Part shown: positions 42,085 through 48,316 of the stretch, in pieces
Numbering within the stretch: position 1 is the first letter of the stretch
Layout of the letters: every line of letters begins with the position of its first letter
Source: Sphingomonas hankyongi
GTDB taxonomy: Bacteria > Pseudomonadota > Alphaproteobacteria > Sphingomonadales > Sphingomonadaceae
Assembly: GCF_023516575.1 (NCBI RefSeq)
Contig: NZ_JAMGBE010000001.1
Coordinates: 124,001 to 188,000, forward strand
Length of the DNA: 64,000 nt
Direction: 5' to 3'
Notes under the pieces: model-generated
The model's database searches: none
The model's input: the letters and a program-made list of their open reading frames with translations, nothing else
What the model was told of the DNA's origin: nothing
Position numbers and translations under genes: made by a program

Positions 42085-43314
42085 TCAGGCGTTGGCGGCG
42101 ATGAAGTCCTCGACGACAGGCGCGATCCTTTCGCGCCATTTACGGCCGTTGAAGATACCGTAATGGCCGACGTCTTTCGCCAGCAGGTACTTCTTCTTCG
42201 AGGCAGCGAGGTTCGGCGTGATGTCGAGCGCAGCCTTGGTCTGGCCGATGCCGGAAATGTCGTCGCGCTCGCCCTCGATGGCAAGCAGGGCAGTGTCGCG
42301 GATGGCGCCGGGATCGACCTTCCGTCCGCGATGCTTCATCCGCCCCTTTGGCAGCAGGTGCCGCTGGAACACGGCGTCTATGGTCTGAAGGTAGAATTCC
42401 GCCGTCATGTCGCAGACGGAGCGATATTCATCGTAGAAGGCACGCGTCGCCTCCGCGCTTTCCTCGTCGCCGACGACCAGGTGCTTGAACATCTCCCAGT
42501 GGCTGATGAGGTGCGAACCGAGGTTCATGGTCATGAAGCCCGCGAGCTGCAGGAAGCCCGGATATACCTTCCGTCCCGAGCCCGGATAAATCATCGGCAC
42601 CGTCGCGATGACATTGTTCTGGAACCAGGCGTGGGGCCGTTGCGTCGCTAGCGTGTTCACGGCAGTCGGCGCCTCCCGGGTGTCGATCGGCCCACCCATC
42701 ATTGTCAGCGTCTTCGGCCGCCATCGATTGCCATCCGCGTTCATGATCGCTGTCGCGGCAAATGCAGGCACCGCGGGCTGGCACACCGCAAGCAGATGCG
42801 GGCGCTCACCGGTCCTCTTCCCGATCAATTCGAGAAATTCGACCAGGTAATCGATGTAGTCGTCGAGATCGAAGCTTCCGTCCTTCAAGGGCACCAGCTT
42901 CGCGTCGCGCCAGTCGGTGATGTAGACGTCGTGCGTTGGCAGAAGGCGTTGAACCGTGCCGCGCAACAGCGTCGCATAGTGGCCGGACATGGGCGCGACG
43001 ATCAGCAGGCTGGCACCATCCTCTACGCCTTCGCGGCGGAAGTGCTTGAGCTGGCCGAATGGCTTGCGGAGCAGGACGTCCTCATAAACTGCGACCTGCT
43101 TCTTGCCGACCTGCACCTTGTCGATGCCGAACTCCGGCTTTCCGCGGGGTGCCGAAGCATGAGCGAATACTTCCAGGCTGGCCGCGACCAGCGGGCTCAT
43201 CGAGGAATAGGAAAAGGGATTGGCGGGATTGCTGAGCCAGCCGGCGCCTAACCCGGCAAGCTTGCTCGCACCTGCGAGAAACGAACGCTGAACCTCGTAC
43301 GCATCATAAAGCAT
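42085..43314 (-). CDS. phaZ: Intracellular polyhydroxyalkanoate depolymerase
   Basis: A 409-aa enzyme degrading stored PHA granules. It belongs to the short-chain intracellular depolymerase family: nucleophile Cys in PHLLAVCQPAVP (near residue 185), Asp in EGERDDISGIGQ and His in VGHYGIFNG. Start at 43314 (MLYDAYEVQRSFLAG), preceded by GGGAGGAAG. An 11-bp palindrome (TTGCGGCGCAA) in the divergent promoter region could be a PhaR site. PhaR and a PhaC-like gene lie 3.5 kb away. Confidence 0.9.
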   Translation of the reverse strand: MLYDAYEVQRSFLAGASKLAGLGAGWLSNPANPFSYSSMSPLVAASLEVFAHASAPRGKPEFGIDKVQVGKKQVAVYEDVLLRKPFGQLKHFRREGVEDGASLLIVAPMSGHYATLLRGTVQRLLPTHDVYITDWRDAKLVPLKDGSFDLDDYIDYLVEFLELIGKRTGERPHLLAVCQPAVPAFAATAIMNADGNRWRPKTLTMMGGPIDTREAPTAVNTLATQRPHAWFQNNVIATVPMIYPGSGRKVYPGFLQLAGFMTMNLGSHLISHWEMFKHLVVGDEESAEATRAFYDEYRSVCDMTAEFYLQTIDAVFQRHLLPKGRMKHRGRKVDPGAIRDTALLAIEGERDDISGIGQTKAALDITPNLAASKKKYLLAKDVGHYGIFNGRKWRERIAPVVEDFIAANA

Positions 43315-43376
43315 CGACAGCCCTTCCTCCCCGCAAAACAGATGTGGGCGGCCTTTGCTCCCCACGCAAGTTAATG

Positions 43377-43387
43377 TTGCGGCGCAA
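43377..43387. promoter_or_regulatory. Palindrome upstream of phaZ, possible PhaR site
   Basis: TTGCGGCGCAA is a perfect palindrome around one central base, 63 bp upstream of phaZ and followed by GTGCAGC at 43391. Known PhaR sites are TGC/GCA-rich dyads, and phaR lies in this window, so the link is plausible but inferred. Confidence 0.3.
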
Positions 43388-43487
43388 ATAGTGCAGCGCG
43401 GCATTAGGTGTGGAAAACTGCCGCTTGGGGCGCGCTGCCCGACAGATCGGCATTTGAGCTATGAGGCGGCACTGTTAGGGAAATGCC

Positions 43488-45266
43488 ATGGCCATTTCCG
43501 CCAACCGCCCGAAGGGCCGATCGGTCAGCGACCTCCGCATGGTGTGGCGCTTTGCGCTCCGCTACCCGGGCCACATCGCAATTGCAGCCCTTGCACTGCT
43601 CGTCGCGGCCGCGGCGACGTCCGGCATTCCCTACGCTTTCAAGCTGATCATCGACAAAGGCTTCGCTACCGGCGGCAACACTCGGGATATTGCCCGCTGG
43701 TTCGAATATCTTCTGATGCTTGTCGGCGTGATGGCGGTTGCGACCGCGACACGCTTCTACTTCGTTTCATGGTTGGGCGAGCGGACGGTCGCCGACATCA
43801 GGCTTGCCGTGCACCGCAACCTTTTGCGCCTTTCGCCAGGCTTCTTTGAAGAAAACCGTCCCGCCGAGATCACGTCCCGAGTGACGGTGGACACCACGAT
43901 CATCGAACAGGTCGTCGGCACCACTGTCTCGGTCGCGCTGCGCAACGTGGTGCTCGCATTCGCCTGCATGATCATCCTGTTCGCGCTGGCGCCGAAGCTG
44001 GCCGGCCTGATCCTTGTGGGCGCCCTCATGGTCGTTGCCCCCATCACCATTCTCGGGCAGCGCGTTCGCAAGATATCTCGGCATAGCCAGGATCGCATCG
44101 CAGACGTCGGCGCGGTGAACAGCGAAGTGCTCGGTGCGATCCGGATCGTTCAAGCTTTCAACCAGGAAGAACGCGAGAGATCGCGGTTCGCGGATGCGGT
44201 CGAACGGGTCTTCGGGACTGCCAAACGCCGCATTTTTCTTCGCGCTATCATGACGGCGATCGTCATTTTCCTGATGCTGGGCTCGATCACGCTGATCATC
44301 TGGCAAGGCGCGATCGACGTCGCCGCAGGACGGATCACGGGAGGCACGATCGCGGCGTTCGTGCTTTACGGCGGACTGCTCGCCGGCGCATTCGGAGCTC
44401 TCTCCGAAGTATATGGGGACCTCCTTCGCGCTGCCGGAGCATCCGAACGATTGTCCGAGCTGCTCGATGCGCGGCCCAATATCGTCGCCCCCGCCGATCC
44501 GGTTAGGCTGCCTGATCCGCCGCAAGGTGAGCTCACCTTCGACCGCGTGACGTTCCATTATCCGACGCGTCCGGACACATCGGCACTCAACGATTTCAGC
44601 CTCGTCGTGAAGCCACGCGAGCGACTTGCGCTGGTCGGGCCGTCTGGAGCAGGCAAGACAACCATCTTCCAGCTTGCGGAGCGTTTCTACGATCCGCAGG
44701 CCGGCCGCGTGCTGCTCGACGGCGTCGATCTTCGCGACGCAGATCCCGCCGACGTGCGGCAGCGCATCGCGATCGTGCCGCAGGAAACCATCATCTTCGC
44801 GGCGACTGCGCGCGACAATCTCCGCTACGGAAATTGGAACGCTAGCGAAGACGACCTGTGGGCCGCGGCGCGCGACGCAAATGCCGAGGAATTCCTGCGC
44901 GCGCTTCCGGAAGGTCTCGACACGTTCATGGGCGAAGGCGGTGCGCGGCTGTCGGGCGGCCAGCGCCAGCGAATCGCCATTGCACGCGCCTTGCTGCGCG
45001 ACGCCCCCTTGCTGCTGCTCGACGAAGCGACGTCCGCGCTCGATGCTGAAAGCGAGCGGCTGGTGCAGGATGCGCTCGACCGGCTGATGGCGCACCGGAC
45101 GACGATCGTCATCGCGCACCGGCTTGCAACGGTGCGCGCTGCGCACCGGATCGTCGTGATGGACCAGGGGCAGATCGTCGAAGAGGGGACGCACTCGACG
45201 CTCACCGCGCGCGGAGGACTCTACGCGCGGCTCGCGAAATTGCAGTTCGAGGATCGCGCCGCTTAG
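43488..45266 (+). CDS. ABC exporter, fused permease-ATPase
   Basis: A 592-aa half-transporter that would act as a homodimer. The N-terminal six-helix domain (residues ~25-315) precedes the ATPase domain: Walker A GPSGAGKTT, Q-loop VPQETIIF, signature LSGGQRQR, Walker B LLLLDEATSALD and the H-loop HRL. The layout matches the MsbA/lipid-and-drug exporter group; the substrate is unknown. Confidence 0.9.
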   Translation: MAISANRPKGRSVSDLRMVWRFALRYPGHIAIAALALLVAAAATSGIPYAFKLIIDKGFATGGNTRDIARWFEYLLMLVGVMAVATATRFYFVSWLGERTVADIRLAVHRNLLRLSPGFFEENRPAEITSRVTVDTTIIEQVVGTTVSVALRNVVLAFACMIILFALAPKLAGLILVGALMVVAPITILGQRVRKISRHSQDRIADVGAVNSEVLGAIRIVQAFNQEERERSRFADAVERVFGTAKRRIFLRAIMTAIVIFLMLGSITLIIWQGAIDVAAGRITGGTIAAFVLYGGLLAGAFGALSEVYGDLLRAAGASERLSELLDARPNIVAPADPVRLPDPPQGELTFDRVTFHYPTRPDTSALNDFSLVVKPRERLALVGPSGAGKTTIFQLAERFYDPQAGRVLLDGVDLRDADPADVRQRIAIVPQETIIFAATARDNLRYGNWNASEDDLWAAARDANAEEFLRALPEGLDTFMGEGGARLSGGQRQRIAIARALLRDAPLLLLDEATSALDAESERLVQDALDRLMAHRTTIVIAHRLATVRAAHRIVVMDQGQIVEEGTHSTLTARGGLYARLAKLQFEDRAA

Positions 45267-45874
45267 CTGGCGGGCGTACCCGAAGGCTTCGGCTTCCGCG
45301 CACGGGTCGTGCGCTTGCGCGTTGCTGTGCTGCGCGGCTTCTTCGTAGCGCTGCTTGCGCGCTTTGCGGCGGGCTTCCGCGCCGTCGAAGCGCGCGTGGC
45401 CGCGCCGGTCGCGGACTTGGCGCGGGTGGTGCTTGCTTTGCGTGCCGTGCTCGTCTTGCGCGTGGCAGTCGACTTGCGCGCCGTGCTTTTCCGTTTGGCG
45501 GTAGACTTACGCGCTGAAGTCTTGCGCGCGCCGCCCGTGGCCCGCGCGGCGCCAGTCACTTCATCGCCCGTCCATTTGCCGGACATCACGCGCTGCGCCG
45601 CTTCGGCCACCGCCTCGGCGATGATCGAACCGAGCTTGGTCGCGCTCGACACCATGTTTGTCGCTGCCTGCGATGCCGTATCCGCGGCATCGAGCCCCGC
45701 ATCGCGGATCTTGCGGCGCGCAGCCGGGCTGGCGCTGATCGCCGCCGCTGCGGCGGCAAGGCCGGCAGCGAGCATTTCCTTGCTCATCGCCGCCTTTGCA
45801 AGCTTGTCCGTGATATCGCTCGCGGAAGCCCTGGAAGAAGATCCCGTTGAACTCTTACGTGCGGATTTGGCCAT
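45263..45874 (-). CDS. Histone H1-like basic protein
   Basis: A 203-aa protein. The first ~105 residues are helical and Ala-rich (DKLAKAAMSKEMLAAGLAAA, MSGKWTGDEV). The last ~95 residues are almost only Lys, Arg, Ser, Thr and Ala in short repeats (ARKST, AKRKST, TARKAS), as in histone H1 tails and bacterial H1-like proteins. It probably binds DNA non-specifically and compacts it; alternatively it may be associated with PHA granules, since its neighbourhood is PHA-related. The gene converges on the ABC exporter with a 4-bp overlap (TTAG). Confidence 0.75.
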   Translation of the reverse strand: MAKSARKSSTGSSSRASASDITDKLAKAAMSKEMLAAGLAAAAAAISASPAARRKIRDAGLDAADTASQAATNMVSSATKLGSIIAEAVAEAAQRVMSGKWTGDEVTGAARATGGARKTSARKSTAKRKSTARKSTATRKTSTARKASTTRAKSATGAATRASTARKPAAKRASSATKKPRSTATRKRTTRARKPKPSGTPAS

Positions 45875-45996
45875 CGCTTATTCTCCCTCCGTCGCGTGAA
45901 AGACACTTTACGGCTGTAACGGTTCCCTAATGACAATTAGCGCGAATTTACAGACGTAAGAAAAGAACCGGAAAATCGCGGAGCCCAGATATGTTA

Positions 45997-46029
45997 AAGG
46001 GCACCGCTGCGTCTCGCAGCGATGCCCTT
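45997..46029. terminator. Strong hairpin (AAGGGCA-CGCTGCG stem)
   Basis: Arms AAGGGCA + CGCTGCG (45997-46011) pair with CGCAGCG + TGCCCTT (46015-46029) with one C-A mismatch and a 3-base loop. It ends the candidate small transcript read on the minus strand, where it is followed by TTTAACAT: a weak U stretch. It may be a terminator, an RNA stabiliser, or part of a micro-ORF. Confidence 0.5.
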
Positions 46030-46071
46030 CGACATGGTCAGCGGCCGAAGGTGTTGGCCGTTCGTCAGCTT

Positions 46072-46122
46072 TTAGGGCCTGCGAACACCCCTCTCCGACC
46101 TCCCTGCTGAACCATGAGACAT
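46072..46122 (-). CDS. Micro-ORF with near-perfect Shine-Dalgarno, candidate leader peptide or sRNA
   Basis: Sixteen codons, MSHGSAGRSERGVRRP, with an ATG seven bases after AAAGGAGG. The whole upstream stretch GAAAGGAGGTGATCC (46124-46138, minus strand) is the exact complement of the 3' end of 16S rRNA. Downstream come a CGGCC/GGCCG hairpin (46042-46060), a second possible 13-codon ORF (45994-46035, MSKGIAARRSGAL) and the strong hairpin at 45997-46029. The 367-bp region between the H1-like gene and the next gene contains only these elements. Whether the peptide is made is unknown. Confidence 0.45.
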   Translation of the reverse strand: MSHGSAGRSERGVRRP

Positions 46123-46241
46123 CGGATCACCTCCTTTCGCTGCGTTGAAGCCATGGAGAAGATGAGTCTTATGCGCGCGCAACGCAAGACTTGTTGAGAT
46201 GTGAATTTTCGGCAATTATCCTGCGCTTCGCGCCGGACGAT

Positions 46242-46709
46242 TCAGGTGCGGCAATCTTCTACAACACGCGCGATTTCTTCCCATGATGGAAGCACGAGCG
46301 CCGGTTGCCCGGTTACGCTGACGCCCAGCCGTCCGCGGCTGAACGCCATCGCGTCGAGCAGGCCGTCCATCGCCGCGAGATCCGCGACAAGCTGCTGCGT
46401 CGTCGGCTGGTAGCTCGCGGGGATGCTGCGCGACAGCGAGCTGGTCCAAACGGAAAGGAAAGGCGCGGCCCCGGTGGCGGCCTTCGCGATCGTCACCCGC
46501 CGTGTCGCGCGCGTGCAGCGCAGCGTCAGCTGAGCGGGGCCAGCGCCATTCCGGAAGCTCGCCTCGCTGCCGGTGGCCGTGCGACTGTAAGTCCAGTCGC
46601 CGGCAATCGGCGTTGAATATTGCAAGTCGACGGCAGCCGTCGCCGCGGTTTGCGCAGAAAGCGGAGATGCACAGGCCAGCGCGAGCGCGGCAACGCGAAA
46701 TTTCTTCAT
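46242..46709 (-). CDS. Exported hypothetical protein (155 aa)
   Basis: A signal peptide (VAALALACASPLSAQ) is followed by a mature domain beginning VDLQYSTPIAGDWTYSRTATGSEASFR, with cysteines at LTLRCTRATRRV and VVEDCRT that may form a disulfide. No named family. It is 4 bp downstream of phaR, so the two may be cotranscribed. Confidence 0.65.
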   Translation of the reverse strand: MKKFRVAALALACASPLSAQTAATAAVDLQYSTPIAGDWTYSRTATGSEASFRNGAGPAQLTLRCTRATRRVTIAKAATGAAPFLSVWTSSLSRSIPASYQPTTQQLVADLAAMDGLLDAMAFSRGRLGVSVTGQPALVLPSWEEIARVVEDCRT

Positions 46710-46713
46710 GGGA

Positions 46714-47235
46714 CTAGCGGTTCAGGCGATCGACTTTGGCTTGCAGCGCAGCAAGTTCCGCGCGGAGCTGGTCGACGTCGGATGCCGGGCCTGGTTTCGC
46801 TTCGGGCTTGGTCTTGCCGGAGAAGGCGCGGCTCGCATCCTCGAACATCGCCATGTTGCGCTTCGCGATATCGGCGAGAACGTTTCCGCCGAGCGCATCG
46901 CGCACCGCGCTCTGGTTACGCTGGAATGCGTCCATCGCGGCTTCGAGATATTGGGGCACGAAATTCTGCATCGAGTTCCCATAGAGGCCGATGAGCTGCT
47001 TGAGAAAGCTGATCGGCAGCATGGTCGAGCCGCGCGCCTCTTCCTCGACGATGATCTGCGTCAGCACCTGGCGGGTGATGTCCTCGCCGGTCTTGGCATC
47101 GACGACTTCGAACTCGCGGCCTTCGCGCACCATTTGCGCGAGACGGTCGAGCGTGATGTATGTCGAGCTCTCGGTGTCGTAGAGACGCCGGTTGGCGTAC
47201 TTCTTGATCGTCACCTTATCCGATGCTTTGGCCAT
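46714..47235 (-). CDS. phaR: PHA synthesis repressor PhaR
   Basis: A 173-aa regulator. The N-terminal PHB/PHA accumulation regulator domain starts KVTIKKYANRRLYDTESSTYITL; the second domain is LPISFLKQLIGLYGNSMQNFVPQYLE. The C-terminal helix is a likely coiled coil (DQLRAELAALQAKVDRL). PhaR binds DNA and PHA granules, repressing phasin and its own gene until granules form. Start at 47235 (MAKASDKV). It is divergent from the PhaC-like gene; a TGCGCTGCA element lies in the short shared promoter region. Confidence 0.92.
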   Translation of the reverse strand: MAKASDKVTIKKYANRRLYDTESSTYITLDRLAQMVREGREFEVVDAKTGEDITRQVLTQIIVEEEARGSTMLPISFLKQLIGLYGNSMQNFVPQYLEAAMDAFQRNQSAVRDALGGNVLADIAKRNMAMFEDASRAFSGKTKPEAKPGPASDVDQLRAELAALQAKVDRLNR

Positions 47236-47305
47236 CAACCGCTCCCAGACGCGAGGAAACCGCTTACTACTGGAGGATAGTGCGCTGCAACATGAACCGC
47301 AGATC

Positions 47306-48316
47306 ATGAAGGCGCCGAGGCCGCTTCCCTTGTTCCTTGAGCTTGTCCGCGAAGTTGCCGGCGACGATCCTGCGCTGGCACGAGATGCACTCGCGGGGCT
47401 TCGCGCATACCAGGCCGCGAACCGTGGGAGCAGCGCGCCTGAAAAGCCCGAGTTTTTCCGCCTCGGCCCCGTTTCCGTGCGCGACTACGGCGGAGACGGC
47501 CCGCCGGCTCTGCTGATTCCTTCGCTGATCAATCCGCCGCGCATTCTGGACCTCGATGACGATGTCTCACTCGCCCTGGCGGTCGCGCGGATGAATCGAC
47601 GAGCGCTGCTGCTTGACTGGGGCGACGCCGCTTCGCGCAACCTGTCGGTGTCCGGGCATATCGAAGAGCTGCTTGTCCCGGCGGTACGCAGCATGGGCGA
47701 GCCGGTCGCCCTGATCGGATATTGTCTCGGCGGGACGATGGCGACGGCAGCGGCGAACCTTGTCGATGTGGAGCGGGTCGTGACGCTCGCAGCGCCCTGG
47801 CACTTCTCGCACTATCCCGAAGCTTCGCTGACCGCCCTTCATGATATGTGGCGGGCGGCCGAGCCCGCGGCGCGAACGCTTGCCGCTTTGCCGATGGAGG
47901 TCCTTCAGGCGGCATTCTGGTCGCTCGACCCGACGCGCACCGTCCGCAAATTCGCGGGCTTCGGCAAGCTCGATCCGGCCAGCCCCGAAGCGCATCGATT
48001 CGTCGAGCTCGAGGATTGGGCCAATGAGGGGGAGCCCCTGCCCTATCCCGCCGCCAGGGAGCTGATCGAAGACCTGTTCGGGCGAGATGTCCCCGGCAAG
48101 GGAGAGTGGAGCGTAGGCGGGCGCGTGGTCAGGGACAAACTGCCTGTTCCAATGCTCAACCTGACGGCCGACGAGGACCGGATCGCGCCGGCAGCAACGG
48201 CTCCGGCCGGCAACAGGATCGGCATCGCATCCGGCCATGTCGGAATGATTGTCGGCTCGGCGCGAACGAAGGTCCACGAAGCGCTGCGCGGCTTCCTCGA
48301 CCCCGCTTGCCGCTAG
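47306..48316 (+). CDS. PhaC-like (class III-sized) alpha/beta hydrolase
   Basis: A 336-aa protein. The nucleophile elbow [12 protein letters not shown] places Cys140 in a G-x-C-x-G-G box, as in PHA synthases (hydrolases usually have Ser). Asp in [12 protein letters not shown] and His in [10 protein letters not shown] complete the triad. The length resembles class III PhaC, which needs PhaE, but no phaE is here. It may polymerise hydroxyacyl-CoA or be a related acyltransferase. Start at 47306; a five-codon upstream ORF (47292-47309) overlaps it by ATGA. Confidence 0.75.

Follow-up and report, generated by a model that had tools for sequence, protein, structure and literature searches.

The minus strand of a 367-bp gap in the window, the stretch of 64,000 nucleotides of Sphingomonas hankyongi DNA analysed here, carries an exact 15-nt complement of a 16S rRNA 3' tail, followed by a start codon, a 16-codon open reading frame (ORF) and two hairpins. 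The question this locus raises is what so extreme a Shine-Dalgarno sequence (SD) is for, and whether it belongs to a leader peptide, to a free-standing small gene or to an RNA that sequesters ribosomes, all of which had been suggested from the sequence in the original prediction. On the comparisons described below, our preferred reading, to which we assign a probability of about one half, is that the element constitutes a free-standing gene for a small RNA of ~150 nt on the minus strand, with its own promoter, homologous to the CC2171 RNA family and containing a short ORF that is translated.

The 16S complement and its surroundings in the window

The flanking ORFs end at 45874 and 46242, which agrees with the predicted gap of 367 bp. 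The SD lies at 46138-46124 on the minus strand and reads GAAAGGAGGTGATCC, an exact 15-nt match to the complement of the 16S tail. The tail used, GGATCACCTCCTTTCTAAGG, was taken from a genome of the same genus (G013, locus L049); the complement is exact for the G013 tail and, by inference, would be so for the genus as a whole. The 15-mer is unique in the organism's own 2.55-Mb assembly, where its one exact match is the window site and its reversed control has 0, so that the extended complement stands as it had been predicted. The shorter 10-mer AAGGAGGTGA is found at 6 sites in the genome, as is its reversed control (likewise 6), and among the 6 sites of this 10-mer it is at the window site only that the exact match extends both ways. 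The predicted duplex of the SD with the 16S tail has an energy of -28.0 kcal/mol, versus -9.2 for AGGAGG. A fragment of a 16S gene was considered as a source of the complement and rejected, as the sequence flanking it is not 16S when compared with the true 16S end at L049.

The ATG at 46122-46120, seven bases past the GGAGG core, opens a frame of 16 codons (46122-46072, minus strand; peptide MSHGSAGRSERGVRRP) that closes with a TAA at 46074-46072; this ORF was confirmed from the letters, and the short frame is conserved in relatives. The 33-nt terminator-like hairpin at 45997-46029 was likewise found where it had been predicted, though it is followed by a T run of only three: its end is CCCTTTAAC, with the hairpin finishing in CCCTT, the next base T, and then AAC. 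Because the run is this short, a terminator scan by a T-run rule called none at this hairpin; T runs are longer in many relatives than in the window element. Upstream of the SD, a putative -35-like hexamer, CTTGCG (46188-46183), and a putative -10-like hexamer, CATCTT (46164-46159), were assigned by eye on the pattern of a promoter-like signature of the relatives; the transcript would be expected to start near 46152. The minus-strand fold of 45993-46155 has a z score of -6.1, and 0/200 shuffled sequences were equally stable.

Relatives, Rfam identity and neighbouring genes

Element DNA was found in 30/61 related genomes, and all 30 fall within the genus of the window; by group, this is 30/37 genomes of the genus (the organism's own included) and 0/24 of other families. 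A 14-mer pattern matched in 49/61 genomes of the genus, and 30 of its 50 sites were read, 29 being the element and 1 a true 16S end. Eleven relatives have a paralogue, type B, at other loci (L062-L072), with GAAAGGAGGTGGTCAG or GGTCTG as its SD and mostly CATTGTC:GACAATG as the long-range helix, P1, discussed below. In the organism's own genome no second copy was found with <=3 mismatches to one type A and one type B pattern.

At the curated thresholds of Rfam the element is unmatched, the only hit that the window gives being a tRNA at another position. By E-value threshold, however, RF01867 (CC2171, a Caulobacter sRNA) matches 45998-46146 on the minus strand with 45.5 bits and an E-value of 1.5e-8, short of its gathering cut-off of 75 bits. 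The alignment is complete, covering model positions 1-159 and including GAAAGGAGGUGAUCC and UGUCUCAU. Window element and family share the same 5' GAAAGGAGGUGAUCC and NUGUCUCAU, the closing helix, the terminator and alignment over their whole length; they differ in the start codon (ATG in the window, GUG in the model consensus) and in P1 (CAUGGU:ACCAUG in the window, CAUUGUC:GACAAUG in the model), and also in that Rfam lists an sRNA whereas a short frame is found conserved here. On this evidence the window element is a homologue of the CC2171 family, without being called as a member. The family is reportedly due to Landt et al. 2008.

A search with RF01867 across the order matched 13/60 genomes, which are 13/14 of those from the family of the window, none of them above the cut-off. 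Across the class (E<=1e-3) it matched 39/190 genomes, 7 of them above the cut-off, with scores graded from 90.5 to 27.7 bits; Caulobacter vibrioides served as the control and was matched in both searches. Of 23 RF01867 places that were read, 3 (L217, L220 and L222) have no SD and start and are chance matches on terminators that belong to other genes; for one genome (G240) such a chance match is the only one. Judged from these scores, the Rfam threshold misses most relatives and the family is spread more widely than it indicates. The pattern AAAGGAGGTGRTCNRRTGTCTCAT matched 26/289 genomes of the class with <=1 mismatch (reversed control 0) and, with <=2 mismatches, 7/76 genomes of one order and 52/96 of another. 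All 15 SD mismatches in the 96-genome order are A-to-G changes, so that wobble pairing with the tail is preserved, though a single family supplies all of them and they are not independent cases. Pooled with the earlier loci, these searches gave 144 distinct elements. Conservation across sphingomonads had been named as the check on the original prediction, and the element proves not to be strain-specific, with relatives in many alphaproteobacterial families.

Several RF01867 matches (L207-L210, L213, L214, L216, L218, L219 and L221) form a branch with an AGTGA- or AGCGG-like P1 after codon 2. By eye, an ACCTYC-like segment also occurs in this branch, close to where the ORF ends; the branch scores far below the Rfam cut-off and the model covers it poorly. 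Spread by plasmids was considered as well and rejected, as the sole plasmid record sharing 29 nt is from Azospirillum and is itself a relative with a longer ORF.

The signature CTT[GA]..N15-19..[CTA]AT..T is present upstream of 75/144 elements, where 2.3 would be expected from shuffled sequences, and in 73/75 it ends 19-23 nt ahead of the SD. The gene upstream in the window (46242-46709) encodes a small protein that has a signal-peptide-like N-terminus and no Pfam match, and in the sphingomonad family a gene of this type precedes the element in 11/11 distinct type A loci outside the genus and in most of those within it. Downstream, at 45263-45874, is a Lys/Ala-rich gene whose 203-aa product has no Pfam or NCBIfam match. 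If the micro-ORF were a leader peptide or part of an attenuator, this gene would be its target: a Lys-rich gene follows the element in the same orientation at most type A loci of the genus, and in 68/88 type A locus records (all origins, many of which repeat one place), and the short T run after the window hairpin could be read in the same way. However, among the distinct type A loci contributed by other genera of the window's family, 11/11 have no Lys-rich gene detected in the ~1.5 kb downstream, and beyond that family crude ORF calls place varying genes there, often on the opposite strand. We therefore give very little credence to the leader that had been put forward as one possibility, since downstream genes differ by family and the Lys/Ala-rich gene is linked to the element only inside the genus. 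Because the downstream genes differ between families, the element looks like a stand-alone gene and is unlikely to act as a leader in the family as a whole; the suggestion of a stand-alone small gene is upheld by the promoter-like signature, the class-wide conservation and the changing neighbours. The further idea that the plus strand might act as a mimic of the anti-SD tail is not borne out, as promoter-like signature, start, frame and terminators all read on the minus strand.

Polyhydroxyalkanoate genes are also found in this part of the window, at 42085-43404, 46714-47307 and 47192-48316 (PhaZ depolymerase, PhaR repressor, PhaC-like (below cut-offs)). In two relatives (L066 and L068) the type B paralogue lies beside a PhaZ-like gene, identified by its by-eye similarity to the PhaZ of the window.

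The short reading frame

In 142/144 elements the NTG frame closes after 15-26 codons, the exceptions being L011 (66 aa, the short frame lost) and L098 (58 aa), while the other two frames run from 2 codons up to the limit of the stretch, about 100. Among 49 dissimilar representatives the frame closes within 15-26 codons in 49/49, where dinucleotide shuffles would lead one to expect 8.5 and the other two frames give 7 and 8; no nominal probability should be quoted for this contrast, as the range was picked after the data had been seen. L098, which later turned out to be a relative with a longer ORF, had been dropped before the representative-frame, codon-position, indel and in-frame Trp tests, and counting it the result would be 49/50; L011 was dropped before the codon-position test and a by-eye comparison of relatives, and in the set of 49 fell into another cluster. 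The patterns that gathered the 144 elements fix most of the SD and the Ser at codon 2, prefer R as the start base and allow only certain bases in codon 3, so that conservation of the start, the Ser and the SD in this set is partly built in. What the patterns left free is how long the frame runs, P1 beyond its third pair, the nucleotide preceding the SD (G in 129/144) and the one that ends it (C in 129/144), to which are added the loci found by the covariance model. These last lie outside the start-codon pattern, and 20/23 of them have an SD, a start and 18-35 codons, with 15/20 within 15-26. When no base is imposed at its first position, the start is ATG in 9 of the 20, GTG in 6, TTG in 5 and CTG in 0. 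Codon 2 is TCT (11), TCC (3), TCG (2), TCA (2), AAA (1) or TTC (1), which is Ser in 18/20 by four different codons. In the larger set the stops TAA, TGA and TAG interchange.

These regularities bear on the reading in which the RNA is purely non-coding and the apparent ORF a by-product of constraints on the RNA. Rfam curates the family as an sRNA, and a strong fold, covariation in P1 and the lack of a third-position signal in most groups are all in keeping with this. We nevertheless consider it distinctly unlikely, as the length of this frame is restricted in 49/49 representatives and that of the other frames is not, a start of ATG, GTG or TTG follows the SD in 20/20 covariance-model loci although its first base was free, and the stops replace one another.

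If the frame is translated, the peptide itself may be what matters, the RNA being a small mRNA whose SD drives abundant synthesis of a functional but fast-changing product of 15-35 aa. The conserved short frame and the Ser codons just described would fit such a micropeptide gene. In the types outside the sphingomonads, moreover, the first TGGA (nt 24-60) is in frame in 52/58, giving a Trp codon that most of these members keep though its distance from the start varies; 30 elements are without the motif. An annotated 58-aa protein of Azospirillum thermophilum (L186, 1519-1695) begins from this same SD and start and is 70% identical over 43 aa to the protein of L098, which suggests that in Azospirillum the initiation site serves real proteins. 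By eye, this 58-aa protein (L186, L098) resembles a small signal-peptide-bearing protein.

Codon-position tests, however, show little or no purifying selection. Changes at positions 1, 2 and 3 number 2568, 2422 and 1760 in type A, with no third-position excess, and 893, 1018 and 1038 in the group f12, with almost none; a lean to the third position is confined to close f12 pairs (115, 118 and 149) and the small number of pairs within type B (25, 25 and 37). A conserved peptide was accordingly not seen in type A, with a slight third-position excess at most in f12 and type B. Gaps in a multiple of three make up 31/188 of those in the ORF in type A, 9/56 in f12 and 10/35 in type B, and 121/1208, 59/389 and 11/93 of those after the stop; this pairwise indel test does not favour coding, most gaps in both regions being of 1-2 nt and probably alignment noise. 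Compared by eye with L147, L148 has apparent compensating frameshifts that alter the middle of the peptide and keep the stop, and pairing of the RNA can account for part of the in-frame conservation. We thus regard a functional micropeptide as a serious candidate that is nonetheless unlikely.

The case for coding is one that rests mainly on the length of the frame. The peptide drifts while frame, length and stop stay, and for this reason selection seems to act on the translation of the short frame, with the peptide sequence hardly conserved. Of the proposed conservation of the 16 codons, then, the short length of the frame is kept and the sequence of the peptide is hardly kept.

The long-range helix and the ribosome

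P1 joins codons 3-5 to the segment right before the terminator hairpin. In the window its 5' strand, CATGGTTCAGC, lies at 46106-46116 (codons 3-6) and its 3' strand, GCTGACCATG, at 46033-46042, immediately before the hairpin, the pairing having been compared across relatives. Three forms account for 122/144 elements: CAUUGUC:GACAAUG (55), CAUGGUU:GACCAUG (53) and CAUUGUC:GGCAAUG (14). Rarer compensated forms are CATTGCC:GGCAATG (L113), CATGAAT:ATTCATG (L122) and ATGAGATT:AATCTCAT (L107), and in covariance-model loci other letters occupy the place of P1 by eye, namely GTGAA:TTCAC (L207), GCG:CGC (L218 and L221) and GAGA:TCTC (L215). P1 is almost invariant within type A (one U-G cell), and a good P1 was not found by the pairing search in several members of the set of 144. 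An extension of P1 in the window, GGTCGG at 46095-46100, pairs with TCGGCC at 46043-46048 in the SD-free fold and as type A alignment pairs 64-68; in type A this extension (GGTCGG:CCGGCC) shows partial variation. Predicted folds add an apical hairpin, GTTCG:CGAAC, at 46060-46086 (46086-46082 with 46064-46060), whose loop contains the stop codon of the micro-ORF. The covariation that had been called for as a check on the stems is supported by these compensatory changes in P1 among relatives. What comparison shows to be conserved is the element as such, with its long-range helix, its start codon and an ORF of restricted length. The Rfam 15 paper mentions one covarying pair added for the CC2171 family.

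A point against our preferred reading is that the SD itself is predicted to be largely hidden in the isolated RNA, its mean unpaired probability being not above 0.5 in 54/55 type A RNAs. For the window RNA the predicted fold with the SD hidden has an energy of -79.0 kcal/mol, versus -68.7 with the SD free, and the segment predicted to hide it is CACCUUC (CACCTTC in the DNA) at 46047-46053, a candidate internal anti-SD. Over 68 sequences the mean z for such an anti-SD and pseudoknot is 0.64, with 22 above 1 (L198 was lost by the pattern), a weak enrichment that is at most suggestive of an internal anti-SD and pseudoknot across the family. The SD may possibly pair with an internal CCUYC segment to form a pseudoknot across P1.

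An SD of this strength could also be imagined to act as a sponge, the RNA sequestering either the 16S tail or sRNAs that carry CCUCC. The 15-bp duplex of -28 kcal/mol would suit this purpose, and there is a precedent in Caulobacter, where the sRNA CrfA is described in PMC12559287 as a sponge of alphaR8 sRNAs carrying UUUCCUCCCU. With the alphaR8 core, however, the SD forms a duplex of only -8.7 kcal/mol, and a segment within the ORF that reaches -12.9 kcal/mol is not conserved in relatives by eye. Furthermore, the suhB family RF00519, which we take to correspond to alphaR8, has 0 matches in the organism's own genome, with Caulobacter vibrioides matched as a control; a sponge of alphaR8 was rejected on the grounds that this target family was not found there. 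Titration of ribosomes, we reason, would demand very high levels of the RNA, and a sponge would need neither start codon, frame nor stop, yet these are conserved. We give little credence to a sponge of either kind.

Returning to the translated small RNA, the conserved parts may be combined into a mechanism. The hyper-strong SD would allow the RNA to be bound close to its 5' end by a 30S subunit, which would then open P1, a helix that starts three bases past the start codon. The region around a start codon must be single-stranded in the ribosome (the 30S footprint), and the start of P1 would fall inside the stretch that the ribosome has to hold in this state; the 15-bp SD duplex (-28.0 kcal/mol) would supply the affinity that the 30S subunit needs to load despite P1. 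The 3' strand of P1 would be made last, ahead of the terminator, and since it adjoins the terminator, P1 could form only when the RNA is nearly complete. The finished RNA would then alternate between a folded state and a state engaged with the ribosome. Because the peptide drifts while frame, length and stop persist, it is probably the act of translation, opening or protecting the RNA, that is the function, rather than a specific peptide. We extend this only tentatively, as a possibility short of being likely, to the CC2171 family at large, which would consist of class-wide RNAs meant to be translated with the peptide immaterial; the perfect complement of the anti-SD, the start codon and a stop 15-35 codons later would turn the ribosome into a switch that opens the conserved long-range helix.

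The element has parallels among dual-function sRNAs of alphaproteobacteria, which likewise are small and contain a tiny ORF. One of these, rnTrpL of Sinorhizobium meliloti, has an ORF of 14 aa that encodes peTrpL (PMC10117765); rnTrpL is leaderless and part of an attenuator, whereas the window element, with its perfect SD, looks like a gene of its own. Pos19 of Rhodobacter is reportedly another dual-function sRNA with a tiny ORF. In Staphylococcus aureus, according to PMC13009471, extended SD pairing goes beyond the canonical core and helps weak start codons; the structure there shows two more base pairs, while 15 contiguous pairs are possible for the window element. There is also a likeness to Hok-type mRNAs, which have a 5'-3' fold-back: pairing of the start region with the 3' end could silence the window RNA at full length. 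The Hok-type mRNAs differ in their product, as the element peptides are not conserved and not hydrophobic-membrane-like; a hydrophobic membrane peptide of the kind made by type I toxins was not seen when the peptides were judged by eye.

As to expression, a table in PMC5596092, as we read it, has a 215-nt sRNA entry at the RF01867 match of Mesorhizobium huakuii, which would represent the expression of a relative. The passages found in the literature under the names CC2171 and RF01867 contain no description of the family as coding. The RNA family is thus known, and the conserved short reading frame is apparently unreported as far as literature searches go. If our reading is true, a family catalogued as non-coding would need to be redefined. 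In Caulobacter, a model species of the class, an SD precedes no more than 24.6% of CDSs, and its strength does not track translation efficiency (PMC4117421); because so few carry one, an alphaproteobacterial family that keeps a 15-nt complement would be a natural experiment on the purpose of extreme SD strength. The reading is directly testable in Caulobacter, for which ribosome profiling data exist.

Some sphingomonad members have long insertions after the stop of the micro-ORF, so that 203-228 nt (L089, L091 and L093-L095) or 192-193 nt (L018 and L021) are found up to P1. In all of these members the ORF stays at 18 codons.
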